Below are positions 1,086-31,500 of a stretch of DNA of 32,842 nt, piece by piece. The notes below the pieces were generated by a model that searched no databases, had not been told where the DNA came from, and was given only the letters and a program-made list of their open reading frames with translations. Both the position numbers and the translations under genes were made by a program. The stretch is from Algoriphagus sp. GTDB taxonomy: Bacteria; Bacteroidota; Bacteroidia; Cytophagales; Cyclobacteriaceae. Within the stretch, counting starts at the first letter, position 1. Every line of letters starts with the position of its first letter. The stretch spans positions 1-32,842 of the forward strand of contig JAHEBE010000007.1 of assembly GCA_024642365.1 (NCBI GenBank), given 5' to 3'.

Positions 1086-1799
1086 ATGAAACAAGAATAC
1101 TTTAAGTGGTTTTCACCTCATTTACAGCGAGATGTTCAAATGCTTTGCTTTGGCCATGCAGGATATCCAGTTGTCTTGTTTCCTACTTCAAAGGGTTCCT
1201 TTCATGAAAACAGAGACATGGGTTTAATCGAATCTGCCAAATGGTATATCGAGCAGGGATTAATCCAGATCTATTGTCCTGAAAGTAACGATGCTGATAG
1301 CTTTTATAATAAAAATATCCACCCTCATCAGCGGATTCAAAATCATGTGGCATACGATAAAATGATTTGTCATGAAGTAGTCGAGCGAATTCGCCTCAAT
1401 ACCTCAATGGCAAAAGTGGTTATGGCAGGTTGTAGTTTTGGGGGGTATCATGCAGTTAATTTTGCTTTCAGGCATCCAGGTTATGTTAGCCATTGTTTTA
1501 GCATGTCTGGGGCTTTTGATATCCGGAGTTTTATGGATGGATACCAGCACGATGATATCTATTACAATAACCCATTGGAATACCTTCCAAATCTTCACGA
1601 TCAAGAATTGTGGCGAATGGACATCGTTTTGGGTACTTCTAATTGGGATATTTGTTTGGATGCTAATTTGAAAATGCATGAGACGCTTAAGTCTAAAAAT
1701 ATAAACCACTGGTTGGACGTCAGACAAAATCAAAATCATGATTGGCCAGTTTGGAAAACAATGTTTCCACACTACCTCAGTCGTATTAAATTTAATTAA
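1086..1799 (+). CDS. Alpha/beta-hydrolase esterase (COG4947-like), amidoligase operon gene 1
   Basis: This 237-residue protein looks like a cytoplasmic serine esterase: no signal peptide is visible. The nucleophile elbow is GCSFGG with Ser117. Likely partners are Asp188 in the NWDICLD segment after a beta strand (DIVLGTS) and His218 in NQNHDWPVW, in the order expected for an alpha/beta hydrolase. The N-terminal part (HAGYPVVLFPTSKG) supplies the oxyanion-hole loop. The family (putative esterases of the COG4947 kind) is known mainly from genome annotation. It is the first gene of a tight five-gene operon: the next start is 21 bases after its stop. In that context it may release, transfer or hydrolyse an acyl or peptidyl product of the ligases downstream. 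That role is inference; the hydrolase fold is well supported. Confidence 0.85.
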   Translation: MKQEYFKWFSPHLQRDVQMLCFGHAGYPVVLFPTSKGSFHENRDMGLIESAKWYIEQGLIQIYCPESNDADSFYNKNIHPHQRIQNHVAYDKMICHEVVERIRLNTSMAKVVMAGCSFGGYHAVNFAFRHPGYVSHCFSMSGAFDIRSFMDGYQHDDIYYNNPLEYLPNLHDQELWRMDIVLGTSNWDICLDANLKMHETLKSKNINHWLDVRQNQNHDWPVWKTMFPHYLSRIKFN

Positions 1800-1820
1800 C
1801 CGGGAATAATTCAACTAATT

Positions 1821-2777
1821 ATGAAAAAAATAGGAATACTATTCGGAATGGAGGACACATTTCCTCAGGCATTTATCGATCGGGTAAATCAAAAAGGAGA
1901 GAAAGGTATTATTGCTGAGGCTGTAATGATCGATAAAGTCATTCAAAATCAACTTTCTGAATATGCGGTAATTATTGATAGGATATCACAGGATGTGCCT
2001 TTTTACAGAGCTTTCTTAAAAAATGCCGCCCTAACAGGTACAGCTGTAATCAATAATCCATTTTGGTGGAGTGCAGATGATAAATTTTTCAATAATGCAC
2101 TTGCTGATCAGCTTGGAGTTCCACTTCCAAAAACGGTGATTTTGCCTTCTGCTAAGCATCCAGATGATACCACTGCCAAATCGTTTAGAAATTTGAAAGC
2201 ACCACTAGACTGGGAAGGAATATTTAATTATGTTGGATTTCCCGCTTATATGAAACCTTATGCAGGTGGTGGTTGGAAAAATGTGTACCGCTTGGAGGAT
2301 AAAGAGGAATTCTTCAAAACACATCCAGAAACTGGTCAATTGGTCATGCTTCTTCAGGAGGAAATAGTATTTGAAGAATACTTTAGAGTTTATTGTCTTG
2401 GTGGTAAGGCTGTCAAGATAATGCCGTATGAGCCGAGAAATCCCCATCACTTACGCTATGTGGTAGACCGTCCGCCTTCATCAAAGAAATTACTGGCTAC
2501 GGTAAAAGATTATACATTACGTCTTTGCAAAGGACTGGGGTATGATTTTAATACCGTTGAATTTGCCGTGAAAGATGGTGTTCCTTATGCGATTGACTTT
2601 GGAAATCCTGCCCCGGATGCAGATGTGAATTCAGTAGGTCAGGAGAATTTTGATTGGGTGGTAGAAGAAGCTGCAAAAATGGCGATCACTTATGCAAAAG
2701 CACAAAAGCCAGGTAAGACGAATTTGACTTGGGGTACTTTCATGCGAGATTCCGTTAATTCTGGGAAAAGATTTTAA
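1821..2777 (+). CDS. ATP-grasp ligase (RimK/D-Ala-D-Ala-ligase-like), amidoligase operon gene 2
   Basis: The 318-residue protein has the layout of a single-domain ATP-grasp carboxylate-amine ligase. Residues 1-85 form a pre-ATP-grasp Rossmann-like region beginning MKKIGILFG. The ATP-binding lysine is probably Lys145 in PAYMKPYAGGGWKNV, whose glycine-rich loop would close over the phosphates. LLQEEIVFEEYFRVYCLGG (177-195) provides the adenine-contact strand and the following Arg-bearing strand. Near the end, VEFAV (246-250) and AIDFGNPAPD (257-266) match the metal-binding strand, with Asp259 and Asn262 where other members have Glu and Asn. Such enzymes join a carboxylate to an amine through an acyl-phosphate. 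The substrate is unknown. It sits 21 bases after the esterase and 18 before the GCS2-type ligase, so the enzymes probably act in one pathway. Confidence 0.88.
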   Translation: MKKIGILFGMEDTFPQAFIDRVNQKGEKGIIAEAVMIDKVIQNQLSEYAVIIDRISQDVPFYRAFLKNAALTGTAVINNPFWWSADDKFFNNALADQLGVPLPKTVILPSAKHPDDTTAKSFRNLKAPLDWEGIFNYVGFPAYMKPYAGGGWKNVYRLEDKEEFFKTHPETGQLVMLLQEEIVFEEYFRVYCLGGKAVKIMPYEPRNPHHLRYVVDRPPSSKKLLATVKDYTLRLCKGLGYDFNTVEFAVKDGVPYAIDFGNPAPDADVNSVGQENFDWVVEEAAKMAITYAKAQKPGKTNLTWGTFMRDSVNSGKRF

Positions 2778-2795
2778 ATCTATATTAAAACTACA

Positions 2796-3914
2796 ATGGC
2801 TGCACTGTTGAAAAAACTTCCAAAATTCACTTTAGGAGTAGAGGAGGAGTACCAAATTATTGACCCGGTGACGAGAGACCTTCGTTCTCATATGTCAAAG
2901 ATTGTGGAGGGAGGTAAGATTTCCCTGCATGAACAGGTCAAAGCAGAAATGCACCAATCTGTAGTAGAAGTTGGGACAAATATTTGTCAAAATGTAGCAG
3001 AGGCTAGAAAAGAAGTCTCGTTTCTTCGAAATAAGATTTCTGAATTAGCTGGAAATCAAGGGTTACTTGTGGGTGCTGCAAGTACACACCCCTTCTCCAG
3101 ATGGCAAGATCAAGAGATTACCGATGATCCTCGCTACCACAATATCGTTGACGAGTTGAAAGACATCGCGCGATCTAACCTGATTTTTGGGTTGCATGTC
3201 CATGTAGGGATTGATAATCGGGATACTGCACTTCAACTAATGAATCAGGCCTGTTATTTTCTACCCCATATTTATGCTTTGACTACTAATTCTCCTTTTT
3301 GGGAAGGTAGAAATACAGGTTTCAAAGCTTTTCGCGCAAAGGTTTTTGCAAAATTCCCTCGAACAGGTCTTCCTGAATATTTTGATTCAGTTCAGTCTTA
3401 TGACAATTATTTGGAGACATTGGTTAAGACGAATTGTATTGATAATCCAAAGAAAATCTGGTGGGATCTTAGGATTCACCCCTTTTTCAGTACCATAGAA
3501 TTTCGGATTTGCGACATGTGTCTTACAGTAGATGAGACCATTTGTATCGTCGCAATTATTCAAGCTGTAGTAGCGAAATTGTATAAGCTTTTAATGAGTA
3601 ATACAAGTTTCAATATTTACCGAATAGCGCTAATCAGAGAGAATAAATTCAGAGCGGCAAGAAATGGAATTGAAGGGAAATTGATTGATTTTGGAAGAAA
3701 AATCGAAGTCCCTACACAGGAATTAATTCATGAGCTTTTGGAGTTTGTGGATGATGTGGTAGATGAATTGGGCAGTAGAAATGAAATTGATTATGTGCAT
3801 CAAATCTTCAAAAATGGAACAGGTGCAGATCAGCAACTTGCTGTTTTTGAAAAAACCCAAGATTTGACCAAAGTGGTGGATATGATCACTTCGAAATTTA
3901 CTGAAGGAATCTAA
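2796..3914 (+). CDS. GCS2/YbdK-family carboxylate-amine ligase, amidoligase operon gene 3
   Basis: At 372 residues this has the usual length for the YbdK/GCS2 family of glutamate-cysteine-ligase-like enzymes, which share the glutamine-synthetase fold. The N-terminal strand FTLGVEEEYQIIDP (11-24) carries the family's metal-binding glutamates; EMHQSVVEVGT (51-61) and LHVHVGID (133-140) are two further catalytic-site motifs. The chemistry is ATP-dependent condensation of a carboxylate (often the gamma-carboxyl of glutamate) with an amine. E. coli YbdK has only weak glutamate-cysteine ligase activity in vitro, so the name should not be read as proof of glutathione synthesis. Being beside an ATP-grasp enzyme it could act like a GshA/GshB pair, but two extra enzymes in the operon argue for a different end product. 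Confidence 0.92.
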   Translation: MAALLKKLPKFTLGVEEEYQIIDPVTRDLRSHMSKIVEGGKISLHEQVKAEMHQSVVEVGTNICQNVAEARKEVSFLRNKISELAGNQGLLVGAASTHPFSRWQDQEITDDPRYHNIVDELKDIARSNLIFGLHVHVGIDNRDTALQLMNQACYFLPHIYALTTNSPFWEGRNTGFKAFRAKVFAKFPRTGLPEYFDSVQSYDNYLETLVKTNCIDNPKKIWWDLRIHPFFSTIEFRICDMCLTVDETICIVAIIQAVVAKLYKLLMSNTSFNIYRIALIRENKFRAARNGIEGKLIDFGRKIEVPTQELIHELLEFVDDVVDELGSRNEIDYVHQIFKNGTGADQQLAVFEKTQDLTKVVDMITSKFTEGI

Positions 3915-3959
3915 AGAAGCTACAGGATTAGAGAATACGCTTAAAAATTTGATTTAAAA

Positions 3960-4790
3960 GTGGGAAAGAAAAAATTAAACCTGGCCATATTAGACATGAA
4001 CAACGGAGAGCCTAATCAAGGCATGCGTTGTATCAGGGAGATTGTGGAGCGATTCGAGGGCCAGATAAATTATAAAGTATTTGATGTCCGTCAAAAGGCG
4101 GAAATCCCAGAGGTTCGGGATTATGATATTTATATCTCTTCTGGAGGTCCAGGAAATCCACTGGAAGGGGATGGAAATTGGGATTTGAAATACTTCGATT
4201 TCATTGATCACTTGTGGATTTGGAATCAAAACCATCATCAAAAAAAGTACATCTTATTTATTTGTCATTCATTTCAGATGGCTTGTAGACATTTTGGGCT
4301 GGGGCAATTGACGCAGCGAAAGTCTACATCATTTGGTGTGATGTCTGTTCATAAAACAGCAGATGGGCAGCATGATCGGTTATTGCAAAACTTAGAAAAT
4401 CCATTTTGGGCGGTTGACTCGAGAGATTATCAGGTTGTTCAGCCGGATCATAAGAAATTTAAGTTCCTAGGCGCTAAGATTATTGCTTTGGAAAAGATCC
4501 GTGACCACGTAGAATATGAGCGTGCGATCATGGCTATTCGATTTTCGGATGAGATGGTAGGTACTCAATTTCACCCGGAAGCTGACCCAATAAGCTTTTT
4601 GAATCACCTTAAAAAGGCTGAAGTGAAGGATAAAGTTATCGCTGCTAAAGGAAAAGTGAAGTTCCGAGCAATGATCGAACACTTGGTCGACGATGATAAA
4701 ATTCTAAAGACAAATGAAACCTTTATCCCGGATTTTCTAGAAAACTCCATTCGAAAAGTAAAGGAATCACAACAGCTGAGTGTTTTATGA
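3960..4790 (+). CDS. Class I glutamine amidotransferase-like protein, amidoligase operon gene 4
   Basis: A 276-residue free-standing class I glutamine amidotransferase (GATase) domain. The GTG at 3960 is chosen because the first beta strand (KLNLAILDMNN) begins directly after it; the next ATG (3996) would delete that strand. SSGGPGNP (60-67) is the oxyanion loop, Cys102 in FICHSFQ the nucleophile, and His205 and Glu207 in TQFHPEAD complete the triad. The elbow is unusual: the normal C-x-G is C-H-S. After the GATase core there is a helical extension of about 65 residues. It could release ammonia for one of the ligases, or act as a gamma-glutamyl hydrolase, as PuuD does in putrescine degradation. 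There is no partner synthase domain. The stop overlaps the next start (ATGA), implying translational coupling. Confidence 0.88.
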   Translation: MGKKKLNLAILDMNNGEPNQGMRCIREIVERFEGQINYKVFDVRQKAEIPEVRDYDIYISSGGPGNPLEGDGNWDLKYFDFIDHLWIWNQNHHQKKYILFICHSFQMACRHFGLGQLTQRKSTSFGVMSVHKTADGQHDRLLQNLENPFWAVDSRDYQVVQPDHKKFKFLGAKIIALEKIRDHVEYERAIMAIRFSDEMVGTQFHPEADPISFLNHLKKAEVKDKVIAAKGKVKFRAMIEHLVDDDKILKTNETFIPDFLENSIRKVKESQQLSVL

Positions 4791-5977
4791 TCACCGATAT
4801 CAGAAGTCAGTTTAACAAGAACTTTACAGCCGAAAAATATGAGGCGTTTTTAAAAGATGTAGCTTCAGATTTTGGTTTTTCACCGACATTTCGAATTGCG
4901 GAGACTCCATTTTTTATTCCTGAAAAACTTAAGAATCAATTGTTGGAAGCTAGTAATCAGGTCGTCGATTTTATTAAAAGACCAGATTTTAAAGACATTA
5001 CTCAACGGGCAATTGATTTAAATACGGAGGTACCAAATGAAGATTTGCATACCGAATTTCTTGCGGTTGATTTTGGAATATGTGAAGAAAATGGTGAAAT
5101 AGTCCCCAAATTGATTGAAGTGCAGGGTTTCCCTTCCATCTTCAATTTTCAATTTGACCTATTCCAAAAGTTTAGATCACATTACCCATTTCTGGAAGAT
5201 TATACTCCTTTTTTTGATGGAATCGATGAGTCAAATTATTTCGATCTGTTGAAGAAAGTCATTTTGAATGGATATCAGGAATCAGAAGTAATATTACTTG
5301 AAATCGAGCCTGAGAAGCAAAACACCAAAATAGATTTCTACTATTGTCGAAGGGATATCGGGATTCCATTTATCTGTGTTACCAAAATTATCAAAGAAGG
5401 CAAGGCATTATTTTATCGAAATGATGCAGGGGAGAAAATTCGAATCAAGCGAATCTACAACCGTGTAATCTTTGATGAATTGGACTTGAGAAATGATCTT
5501 CAGTTGGAATTTAGTTTTCAGGAAGAATTGGATGTAGAGTGGGCCGGACATCCAAATTGGTACACCCGTATTTCAAAGTTCATTCTACCATACTTACAAG
5601 GTGACTATTTCATTGAGACAAAATTGCTAAGTGAATTGGACAAGATTCCAACTGACTTAGAGAATTATGTGTTGAAGCCGCTATTCTCCTTTTCTGGAAC
5701 AGGTGTTGTTTTTCATGTGACCCCAGAAGCAATTCAGTCGGTGAAAGAAAAAGATTTATATATCCTGCAAAAGAAAGTTCATTATAAGCCAGTTATTAAA
5801 GCGCCTGACGGAGAAATTAAAGTTGAGGTAAGAATGCTTGCACTTTGGCCAAAAGATCAAGAGAATCCTCAATTTGTCTGTAATCTATCCAGATTAAGTC
5901 GAGGAGAGATGATCGGTGTCAAATTCAATAAAGACAAAGATTGGGTCGGCGGTTCGATTGGACTATTTAAGAAATAA
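4787..5977 (+). CDS. Circularly permuted ATP-grasp-like ligase, amidoligase operon gene 5
   Basis: This 396-residue protein carries ATP-grasp motifs in permuted order. The strand that normally ends such enzymes comes first: AVDFGICEENGEIVPKLIEV (93-112) and then QGFPS, giving E111-x-Q113 where most members have E-x-N. The lysine-bearing strand and loop follow much later: YVLKPLFSFSGTGV (294-307, Lys297), the adenine strand LYILQKKV (324-331), IKVEVRMLALWP (344-355), and CNLSRLSRGEMIGVKFN (365-381) at the C-terminus. That order resembles the circularly permuted ATP-grasp proteins related to glutathionylspermidine synthase. Function is inferred to be ATP-dependent amide or peptide bond formation; substrate unknown. 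It starts inside the stop of the GATase gene and is the last gene before a strong terminator. Residues 20-92 form an N-terminal helical cap. Confidence 0.72.
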   Translation: MITDIRSQFNKNFTAEKYEAFLKDVASDFGFSPTFRIAETPFFIPEKLKNQLLEASNQVVDFIKRPDFKDITQRAIDLNTEVPNEDLHTEFLAVDFGICEENGEIVPKLIEVQGFPSIFNFQFDLFQKFRSHYPFLEDYTPFFDGIDESNYFDLLKKVILNGYQESEVILLEIEPEKQNTKIDFYYCRRDIGIPFICVTKIIKEGKALFYRNDAGEKIRIKRIYNRVIFDELDLRNDLQLEFSFQEELDVEWAGHPNWYTRISKFILPYLQGDYFIETKLLSELDKIPTDLENYVLKPLFSFSGTGVVFHVTPEAIQSVKEKDLYILQKKVHYKPVIKAPDGEIKVEVRMLALWPKDQENPQFVCNLSRLSRGEMIGVKFNKDKDWVGGSIGLFKK

Positions 5978-5999
5978 AAAAAGCGGCTCGCCGCTTTTT
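5978..5999. terminator. Bidirectional rho-independent terminator between the operon and pyrE
   Basis: A perfect 9-bp stem AAAAAGCGG (5978-5986) / CCGCTTTTT (5991-5999) with loop CTCG is flanked by A's on the left and T's on the right, so it can end transcripts in both directions. It starts directly after the stop of the last amidoligase-operon gene and lies 6 bases past the end of the convergent pyrE. Confidence 0.9.
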
Positions 6000-6005
6000 T
6001 TATTT

Positions 6006-6650
6006 TCAAGGTTGCCAGTTTGCAGGATCAGTTCGCCAAGCTGCCAAAGATTTAAGTGTGTCATCTTGGATATAATTTCTTCGCAGGGCCTGAGGAAGCA
6101 TGGCTTCGTAATGACTCAAGCAGACCAATTTTACAGCAGCCTCTTCAAAGTTTTTTAATGCGATATCAAATCCATAGCTGAAAATCGCAACCATACCCAA
6201 TACTTCAAAACCAGCATCTTTAAGATCTTGAGTTGCTTTCAAAGAACTCCCACCAGTCGATACGAGATCTTCTATGACAACTACTTTTTGACCGGGAACG
6301 ACTTTACCTTCAATCATATTTTCCATCCCATGTCCTTTTGGTTTTGATCTTACATAGATGAATGGAAGATCTAAGTCATTTGCTAAAAGCGCTCCCTGCG
6401 GAATTCCAGCTGTCGCTACTCCAGCGATTGCTTCAGCATTTGGGAAGTAATGTTGAATACTTTTGATTAAGTTTTCTTTGATCATTGATCGCACTTTAGG
6501 ATAGGAGAGTGCGAGTCTATTATCGCAATAGATGGGAGATTTCCAACCTGAGGCCCAAGTAAAGGGTTTGTTGGGTTGGAGTCTGATTGCTTCTATTTCC
6601 AATAATTTATCAGCGACTTCCGCTGCTACATTTTGATCTAAAATTTCCAT
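6006..6650 (-). CDS. pyrE: Orotate phosphoribosyltransferase
   Basis: PyrE transfers the phosphoribosyl group from PRPP to orotate to give OMP, the fifth step of de novo UMP synthesis, in the cytoplasm. The 214-residue protein has the PRPP-binding motif VVVIEDLVSTGGSS (123-136), the flexible catalytic loop SKPKGHG (102-108), and the N-terminal FTWASGWKSPIYCDNR segment (30-45) that contacts orotate. The length is normal for the family. The ATG at 6650 is the natural start. It stands alone on the - strand, convergent with the amidoligase operon and sharing its terminator, and divergent from a Nudix gene across about 97 bases. No attenuator-like hairpin is apparent in its short leader. Confidence 0.96.
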   Translation of the reverse strand: MEILDQNVAAEVADKLLEIEAIRLQPNKPFTWASGWKSPIYCDNRLALSYPKVRSMIKENLIKSIQHYFPNAEAIAGVATAGIPQGALLANDLDLPFIYVRSKPKGHGMENMIEGKVVPGQKVVVIEDLVSTGGSSLKATQDLKDAGFEVLGMVAIFSYGFDIALKNFEEAAVKLVCLSHYEAMLPQALRRNYIQDDTLKSLAAWRTDPANWQP

Positions 6651-31035: not shown

Positions 31036-31040
31036 GAAAG

Positions 31041-31114
31041 TCGGGGTGGCAGGATTCGAACCTACGACCTCCACATCCCAAATGTGGCGCGATACCGGGC
31101 TACGCTACACCCCG
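31041..31114 (-). tRNA. tRNA-Pro (anticodon TGG)
   Basis: A 74-base tRNA reads on the - strand from CGGGGTG (5' acceptor arm, from 31114) to CACCCCG plus discriminator A (31041). The anticodon loop is TTTGGGA between arms CCACA and TGTGG, giving anticodon TGG. The T loop GTTCGAATC is present. The CCA end is not encoded. It decodes proline CCN codons. Confidence 0.97.
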
Positions 31115-31392: not shown

Positions 31393-31411
31393 ACCTTATT
31401 GACTTAATTCG

Positions 31412-31500
31412 CAGAGAGTGGGGGATTCGAACCCCCGGTACGGTATGACCCGTACGACAGTTTAGCAAACTGCTGGTTTAAGCCACTCACCCAACTCTCT
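31412..31500 (-). tRNA. tRNA-Ser (anticodon GCT)
   Basis: An 89-base class II tRNA on the - strand with 5' acceptor arm AGAGAGT (from 31500) pairing ACTCTCT, and discriminator G at 31412. The anticodon loop TTGCTAA gives GCT, for serine AGC/AGT codons. A long variable arm (GTACGGG/CCGTAC region) is typical of tRNA-Ser. CCA is not encoded. Confidence 0.96.

Follow-up and report, generated by a model that had tools for sequence, protein, structure and literature searches.

Five adjacent genes, three of which encode predicted amide-bond-forming ligases, lie near the start of the 32,842-nucleotide stretch of Algoriphagus DNA analyzed here (the window), which is contig C192, in our numbering, of an 83%-complete draft genome (3.4 Mb, 483 contigs). 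ORF (open reading frame) calling placed all five on the plus strand at 1086-5977, spaced by 21, 18, and 45 bases and ending in a 4-base overlap. The first gene, EST (1086-1799), encodes a 237-aa alpha/beta-hydrolase of the putative-esterase family PF00756 and is followed by GRASP (1821-2777), a 318-aa ATP-grasp ligase, and GCS2 (2796-3914), a 372-aa YbdK-type carboxylate-amine ligase (PRK13515). GAT (3960-4790), which has a GTG start, encodes 276 aa with a class I glutamine amidotransferase domain, and CPG (4787-5977), the gene that overlaps it by 4 bases, encodes a 396-aa circularly permuted ATP-grasp ligase. The first-pass annotation had described these genes as a single operon closed by a terminator, and both the ORF coordinates and the folding of the hairpin described below confirm that layout. 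Its statement that no nonribosomal peptide synthetase (NRPS), carrier protein, or transporter is encoded among the five also held in Pfam and NCBIfam scans.

A terminator-like hairpin with an A tract on one side and a T tract on the other occupies 5975-6005, 3' of the last stop codon. The segment 5968-6006 folds at -17.4 kcal/mol (z -5.15), and none of 200 shuffled sequences was equally stable. A consensus terminator scan did not list this hairpin, probably because its loop and tail fall outside the rules of the scan. Since the hairpin also precedes a convergent phosphoribosyltransferase gene (PF00156) at 6006-6650, it may be shared and terminate both transcripts.

Families and conserved residues of the five proteins

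The assignment of genes two and five to the ATP-grasp enzymes rests mainly on predicted structures. The CPG protein of the window has no Pfam hit at 0.001 and no NCBIfam hit at 0.01, and its structure model has a mean pLDDT (predicted local distance difference test) of 94.6. When this model was compared with the PDB using Foldseek, it matched yeast glutathione synthetase (1m0w, E 9.3e-16), the putative glutathionylspermidine synthase 3n6x (E 3.2e-14), YgiC and YjfC (E about 1e-11), and the fungal ligase Cp1B (9cjn, E 4.7e-10). All 29 matches at E<=0.001 were glutathione or homoglutathione synthetases or effectors like them, glutathionylspermidine or trypanothione synthetases, YgiC/YjfC, or Cp1B. 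Since TM-scores by query length were about 0.45-0.61 and identities 10-16%, CPG is a distant relative of these structures. The earlier call of a permuted ATP-grasp enzyme for the fifth gene was thus right, judging by the confidence of the model and its glutathione synthetase-type fold matches, and the family of such enzymes that it represents escapes the Pfam and NCBIfam models in the case of the window protein.

An alignment of 78 CPG sequences with less than 80% mutual identity, taken from 91 rows including the window, contains 27 invariant residues. Two of these, E111 and Q113, fall within the N-terminal third of the protein, and three others, K297, G304, and G306, within its C-terminal third; in our own reading, the first pair would be the metal-ligand motif and the later three the glycine-rich loop, an order that is permuted. 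A split CPG gene, at locus L076 of genome G066, was excluded by the coverage limit. The CPG profile reaches YgiC at 0.0096, and 27 of the 78 proteins match PF03738 (GSP_synth) weakly at E<=1, with a best value of 5.2e-5. No PF03738 hit at E<=1 was obtained for the window CPG, and this protein therefore falls short of the Pfam cut-off for glutathionylspermidine synthase. At L036, L040, and L046, CPG-like ORFs stand in tandem pairs, with a single 867-aa ORF in L040.

GRASP had no Pfam hit at 0.001, and by the curated NCBIfam cut-off it is not RimK (TIGR00768, 32.7 bits against the 143.4 needed). Its model (pLDDT 86.9) matched D-Ala-D-Ala ligase, ArgX/LysX, PsnB, and RimK about equally, so that in the predicted structure the ATP-grasp fold is clear and the substrate is not. 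One sequence, L118, was left out of the GRASP alignment due to a stop codon.

The remaining three proteins passed curated cut-offs. GCS2 belongs to PF04107 (194.4 bits, cut-off 21) and to the carboxylate-amine ligases of NF010039 (525 bits, cut-off 371, residues 8-371), and it matches the YbdK structure 1r8g at E 3.5e-50. GAT is a member of PF00117 (37.6 bits, cut-off 22.8), and its triad of Cys102, His205, and Glu207 is invariant in all 39 aligned sequences, the window included. EST is a member of PF00756 (30.7 bits, cut-off 22); its Ser117, the GxSxG serine within AGCSFGG, is kept in 33 of 36 aligned sequences and its His218 in 34 of 36, both counts including the window. The conserved residues of GRASP, GAT, and CPG relatives are ones that we take to be catalytic, and the EST serine is of the catalytic type as well. 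The genomes that carry a serine-less EST at L039, L056, and L064 (G224, G124, and G031) hold a second EST match elsewhere.

Co-inheritance, gene order, and probable movement of the gene set

The distribution of the genes was surveyed in a single even sample of 296 genomes from the phylum, in which CPG was present in 92 genomes, GRASP in 109, GCS2 in 103, and GAT in 70. Among the 92 CPG genomes, GRASP was found in 89, GCS2 in 87, and both in 84, while GAT was found in 55; conversely, 69 of the 70 GAT genomes also have GRASP. Hypergeometric log10 P values were -50.8 for CPG with GRASP and -50.7 for CPG with GCS2, values that are overstated, as shared ancestry is ignored. With a threshold of E<=1e-10, 88 of the 92 CPG genomes (76 of 80 plus 12 of 12) contain EST, as do all 15 genomes that have GAT and GRASP without CPG. 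Among 53 genomes without CPG and GAT, taken in listing order and therefore non-random, EST was present in one; this control set includes G004 and G007, which have a distant GCS2 and a distant GRASP, respectively. Many EST hits in deep families are just 28-35% identical and may represent a sister subfamily.

The counts speak against a strict set of five genes: the 92 CPG genomes include 37 without GAT, 5 without GCS2, and 3 without GRASP. GRASP occurs without CPG in 20 genomes, 15 of which have GAT; the other five (G007, G087, G127, G160, and G287) have a GRASP match and neither CPG nor GAT. The core consists of EST, GRASP, and one permuted ATP-grasp enzyme; of the 107 genomes with CPG or the apparent substitute context described below, 70 have GAT. 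The five genes belong to a co-inherited module, even when they are unlinked.

The first-pass annotation had treated the five families as a unit, and this was borne out in part: the families co-occur (GRASP and GCS2 both accompany CPG in 84 of 92 genomes), but they are often not physically together. When a ligase cluster was defined as neighbors within 4 kb on one strand, all three ligases were clustered in 45 of the 84 genomes that have them and all were apart in 25, a count to which draft contig ends contribute; GRASP and GCS2 alone were paired in 11, and CPG and GCS2 alone in 3. Genome G127, which has a weak GRASP hit, was left out of the linkage count, which therefore covers 108 GRASP genomes instead of 109. 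The full order EST-GRASP-GCS2-GAT-CPG, on one strand and within 6.5 kb, was observed at 25 of the 91 loci obtained from the phylum sample. Among loci from named genomes, which are best hits and thus biased to close relatives, it was observed at 61 of 80. CPG without any of the other four nearby was seen at 36 of the 91 and 5 of the 80 loci, respectively. As relatives of four of the genes occur in 70-109 of the 296 genomes and the full order recurs, the gene set is not a product of chance.

Of the 55 genomes with both GAT and CPG, 40 keep the two genes on one strand and no more than 6 kb apart. GAT stands elsewhere while the three ligases are together in 9 of 50 four-gene genomes, and an M29-type metallopeptidase occupies its slot at five loci (L034 by Pfam and four others by clustering with L034). 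A CPG gene that is separated from the other ligases is often preceded by a gene of one particular cluster, identified as Amidohydro_3 in L070; such loci are L070, L072, L075, L077, L083, L086, L087, and L090-L093. At L203, a hutH gene follows GRASP (L203:3203-5682) and a serine-carboxypeptidase-type gene (PF00450) follows GCS2 (L203:16170-19138), and genes of the same two clusters recur in L204-L207.

The 15 genomes with GAT and GRASP but without CPG, 8 of which also lack GCS2, point to a substitution. We examined the GRASP loci of 10 of them, and in all 10 (L223, L224, L226, L227, L229, L231, L233, L234, L236, and L237) GRASP is adjoined by a gene, d3, for a protein of about 450-480 aa, with GAT beside it in nine and EST in eight. 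Three d3 proteins match CP_ATPgrasp_2 (2.8e-5 to 2.1e-9), and the d3 profile matches 3n6x at 2.8e-8. Comparison of the d3 and CPG profiles was weak (hhalign probability 3.4%, with the glycine-loop region aligned), and the two families would be alike at the fold level only, an assignment that for d3 comes from the CP_ATPgrasp_2 and 3n6x matches. No d3 gene was found in any of the 171 loci around CPG (L032-L202), the remainder of those genomes not having been searched. Since d3 is present at all 10 of these GRASP loci, the slot of the permuted ATP-grasp enzyme appears to be kept while the protein is exchanged. That a second family fills the same slot suggests that the reaction, rather than the protein, is conserved.

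By their CPG proteins, the closest named relatives of the window are Algoriphagus species, with a maximum of 75% identity. Trees were generated for two of the five genes, CPG (36 rows) and GRASP (34 rows). In both, the window, eight named Cyclobacteriaceae, and seven Flavobacterium species form a 16-row clade with 100/100 support that excludes both other Flavobacteriaceae (Gelidibacter, Polaribacter, and Subsaxibacter) and two further genera of the window's own family. GRASP is 82-86% identical to the window in Flavobacterium versus 70-73% in the two excluded own-family genera, and the step in identity is the same for all five proteins. These sequence comparisons point to transfer of the whole operon between Cyclobacteriaceae and Flavobacterium, with loss of older copies as the alternative, and such a joint transfer would suggest that the five genes suffice for a function. 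Spread on plasmids was considered and rejected: CPG and GRASP had no plasmid match, and the GCS2 relatives found on 71 plasmid records are all less than 60% identical.

Other neighboring genes were considered as members of the operon and excluded. A 167-aa ORF at 478-981, without a Pfam hit and a membrane protein by eye, has relatives upstream in just three of the 91 loci, all of the same genus. The thioredoxin-like protein, GH97, alpha-amylase, and glycosyltransferase neighbors (one representative each) recur in few loci, as does neighbor c38, which by eye resembles a tryptophanyl-tRNA synthetase. Farther along the window, tRNA-Pro(TGG) at 31040-31114 and tRNA-Ser(GCT) at 31411-31500 both lie on the minus strand.

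Proposed pathway and competing explanations

We consider it likely that the operon encodes an NRPS-independent amide-ligase pathway to a small peptide-like metabolite. Support for this comes from the protein families, the folds, the conserved residues, and co-inheritance, from which we infer all substrates, the order of the steps, and the product. Assembly would take place in the cytoplasm from free amino acids or amines. GRASP and GCS2 would each couple a carboxylate group, possibly that of a glutamate side chain, to an amine by way of an acyl-phosphate, with GCS2 performing an accessory step that some versions would do without. The final building block, an amino acid, an amine, or ammonia, would then be attached to the growing carboxyl end by CPG or, in its place, d3. 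GAT could either hand ammonia from glutamine to that ligase, so that an amide is formed, or remove a gamma-glutamyl group, and EST would hydrolyze an ester or thioester bond in either an intermediate or the product. A partnership between GAT and CPG is suggested by their 4-base overlap in the window and their proximity in 40 of 55 genomes.

Several observations weigh against this reading. The co-occurrence statistics take no account of shared ancestry, and the number of unlinked cases is inflated by genes that fall at the ends of draft contigs. No GAT match was found in 37 of the 92 CPG genomes, and where both are present GAT is apart from CPG in 15 of 55; hit coordinates overlap in just two of the 40 close pairs, those of the window and of G234, the latter by a single base. 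Because so many CPG genomes lack GAT and overlaps are rare, a partnership that channels ammonia from GAT to CPG would not be general. GCS2 is missing from 5 of the 92 CPG genomes (G037, G064, G158, and G178, which belong to one family, and G212), and its Pfam family is broad, being present in 5 of 14 control genomes. The EST serine is lost in 3 of the 36 aligned sequences (L039, L056, and L064), and in deep families CPG adjoins other genes, such as an amidohydrolase. Finally, the substrates and product of the pathway are read from families and folds.

One alternative is that the genes make a glutathione-like thiol or a gamma-glutamyl peptide beside bacillithiol, in which GCS2 would form gamma-Glu-Cys or gamma-Glu-X, CPG would add a third residue in the manner of eukaryotic glutathione synthetase, and EST would act as an S-acyl-thiol hydrolase. 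The placement of GCS2 in a glutamate-cysteine-ligase-like family and the glutathione synthetase fold of CPG favor this, as does the neighborhood of GCS2 in genomes that lack CPG. Seven genomes have GRASP and GCS2 without CPG, and the GCS2 loci of five of them were examined. In four (L225, L228, L230, and L232), the gene immediately upstream of GCS2, on the same strand, belongs to cluster d16; it is BshA by profile in L225 (543 bits, cut-off 273.7; the pair spans L225:5638-8014) and is assigned in the other three through the same BLAST cluster. The pairing is absent from L235, and three of the four loci come from one genus, so that they represent at most two independent cases.

The first-pass annotation had named a glutathione, bacillithiol, or other known pathway as something that might fully explain the five genes, and the known bacillithiol pathway does not account for them. 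BshA is over its cut-off in 288 of the 296 genomes and BshC in 291, so these near-universal genes do not track the module, and in the window's own genome both lie on other contigs. For glutathione, no PF04262 GshA was found in that genome at its 83% completeness, with other GshA families not searched. Of 22 genomes examined, the same family was found in one, G238, a genome that lacks a BshC match. PF02955 (GshB, GSH-S_ATP) is over its cut-off of 23 in 18 of the 22, with 66.7 bits in the window's own genome, a level also reached by several other ATP-grasp proteins of the set; scores of 228-231 bits, as expected of a true GshB, were found only in two genomes of one genus, G076 and G194. Glutathione synthesis in the window's own organism is therefore weakened as a prediction by the missing PF04262 GshA, while the PF02955 match remains. 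The strong gshB matches lie at G076:C1:1495524-1496045 and G194:C46:12975-13496, and no PF04262 gshA was found in either genome; in these two, GCS2 could supply gamma-glutamylcysteine.

A gamma-glutamyl product, which the first-pass annotation had offered as one possibility, is not required of every version of the module, since GCS2 is missing from 5 of 92 CPG genomes and from 8 of the 15 CPG-less ones. This dispensability of GCS2 also counts against the thiol explanation, as does the lack of any cysteine-specific feature among those found here, and we regard that explanation as unlikely. According to the available text of a paper on N-methyl-bacillithiol, nmbA occurs in 31% of bacillithiol-positive Bacteroidetes (PMC6282198). 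As a share, this resembles the 92 of 296 genomes with CPG.

A conjugate of a peptide with a polyamine or another amine seems about equally doubtful. CPG would then be a YgiC/YjfC-like or glutathionylspermidine synthase-like enzyme, and GAT or the M29 peptidase would trim or recycle the conjugate. The weak PF03738 matches in 27 of 78 CPG proteins, the match of the CPG profile to YgiC, that of d3 to 3n6x, and the M29-type protein in the GAT slot of five loci are consistent with such a role, but the window CPG itself has no GSP_synth hit and its best fold matches are glutathione synthetases. Modification of a protein or ribosomal peptide by a GRASP acting like RimK, ArgX, or PsnB is improbable: although the GRASP model matches these enzymes about as well as D-Ala-D-Ala ligase, GRASP is well under the RimK cut-off, and the gaps of 21, 18, and 45 bases leave no room inside the operon for a precursor peptide (a graspetide precursor included) or carrier gene, flanking ORFs below 70 aa not having been searched.

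Relation to known systems and significance

Comparison with characterized enzymes gives further context to the proposed amide-ligase pathway. CPG shares its fold and permuted motif order with eukaryotic-type glutathione synthetase, glutathionylspermidine synthase, and YgiC/YjfC, but it is just 10-16% identical to them, has no hit to a curated family, and stands beside two further ligases, a glutamine amidotransferase, and an esterase. GCS2 is a member of the YbdK/PRK13515 family by the NCBIfam cut-off. YbdK is known as a stand-alone enzyme, whereas GCS2 is tied here to two ATP-grasp enzymes. The bacillithiol pathway offers a possible thiol link through the bshA-type gene beside GCS2 in four of the five GCS2 loci examined in CPG-less genomes, and it differs in being near-universal and encoded on other contigs of the window's own genome.

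A further parallel is Cp1B of the E-64 pathway, which like CPG is a permuted ATP-grasp enzyme and which makes a small pseudopeptide without an NRPS (PMC12568646). As described in the available text of that paper, Cp1B joins the carboxyl group of epoxysuccinate to free L-amino acids as an amide, forming ADP, and YgiC and YjfC are called peptidylpolyamine synthetases (PMC12568646). The E-64 pathway is unlike the operon in that its second amide bond is formed by an ANL-family enzyme and no glutamine amidotransferase is mentioned in that text; Cp1B is fungal, with low-identity homologues in cyanobacteria (PMC12568646).

The idea that gene clusters of this general kind make peptides is not new. Iyer et al. 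in 2009 reportedly predicted peptide products for amidoligase clusters of ATP-grasp and GCS2 enzymes, and this or a related gene set may already be listed there as a prediction. Their circularly permuted tagging system is said to include an NTN-hydrolase (N-terminal nucleophile hydrolase) and an alpha-helical domain, neither of which was shown by the five genes in Pfam and NCBIfam scans. No title on the five-gene set was found among the open-licence papers that our searches listed.

If the proposed pathway is correct, about one third of the sampled genomes would make a dedicated small molecule that, as far as our searches show, has no name. More speculatively, this molecule could be a previously unrecognized low-molecular-weight cofactor of the Bacteroidota, such as a gamma-glutamyl or amidated tripeptide thiol or amine. 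Its dedicated pathway would operate alongside that of bacillithiol in roughly one third of the phylum, be passed on horizontally as a single operon, and have had its terminal ligase exchanged for a different permuted ATP-grasp family. The whole gene set fits on one 4.9-kb piece of DNA and could be tested in a laboratory host.

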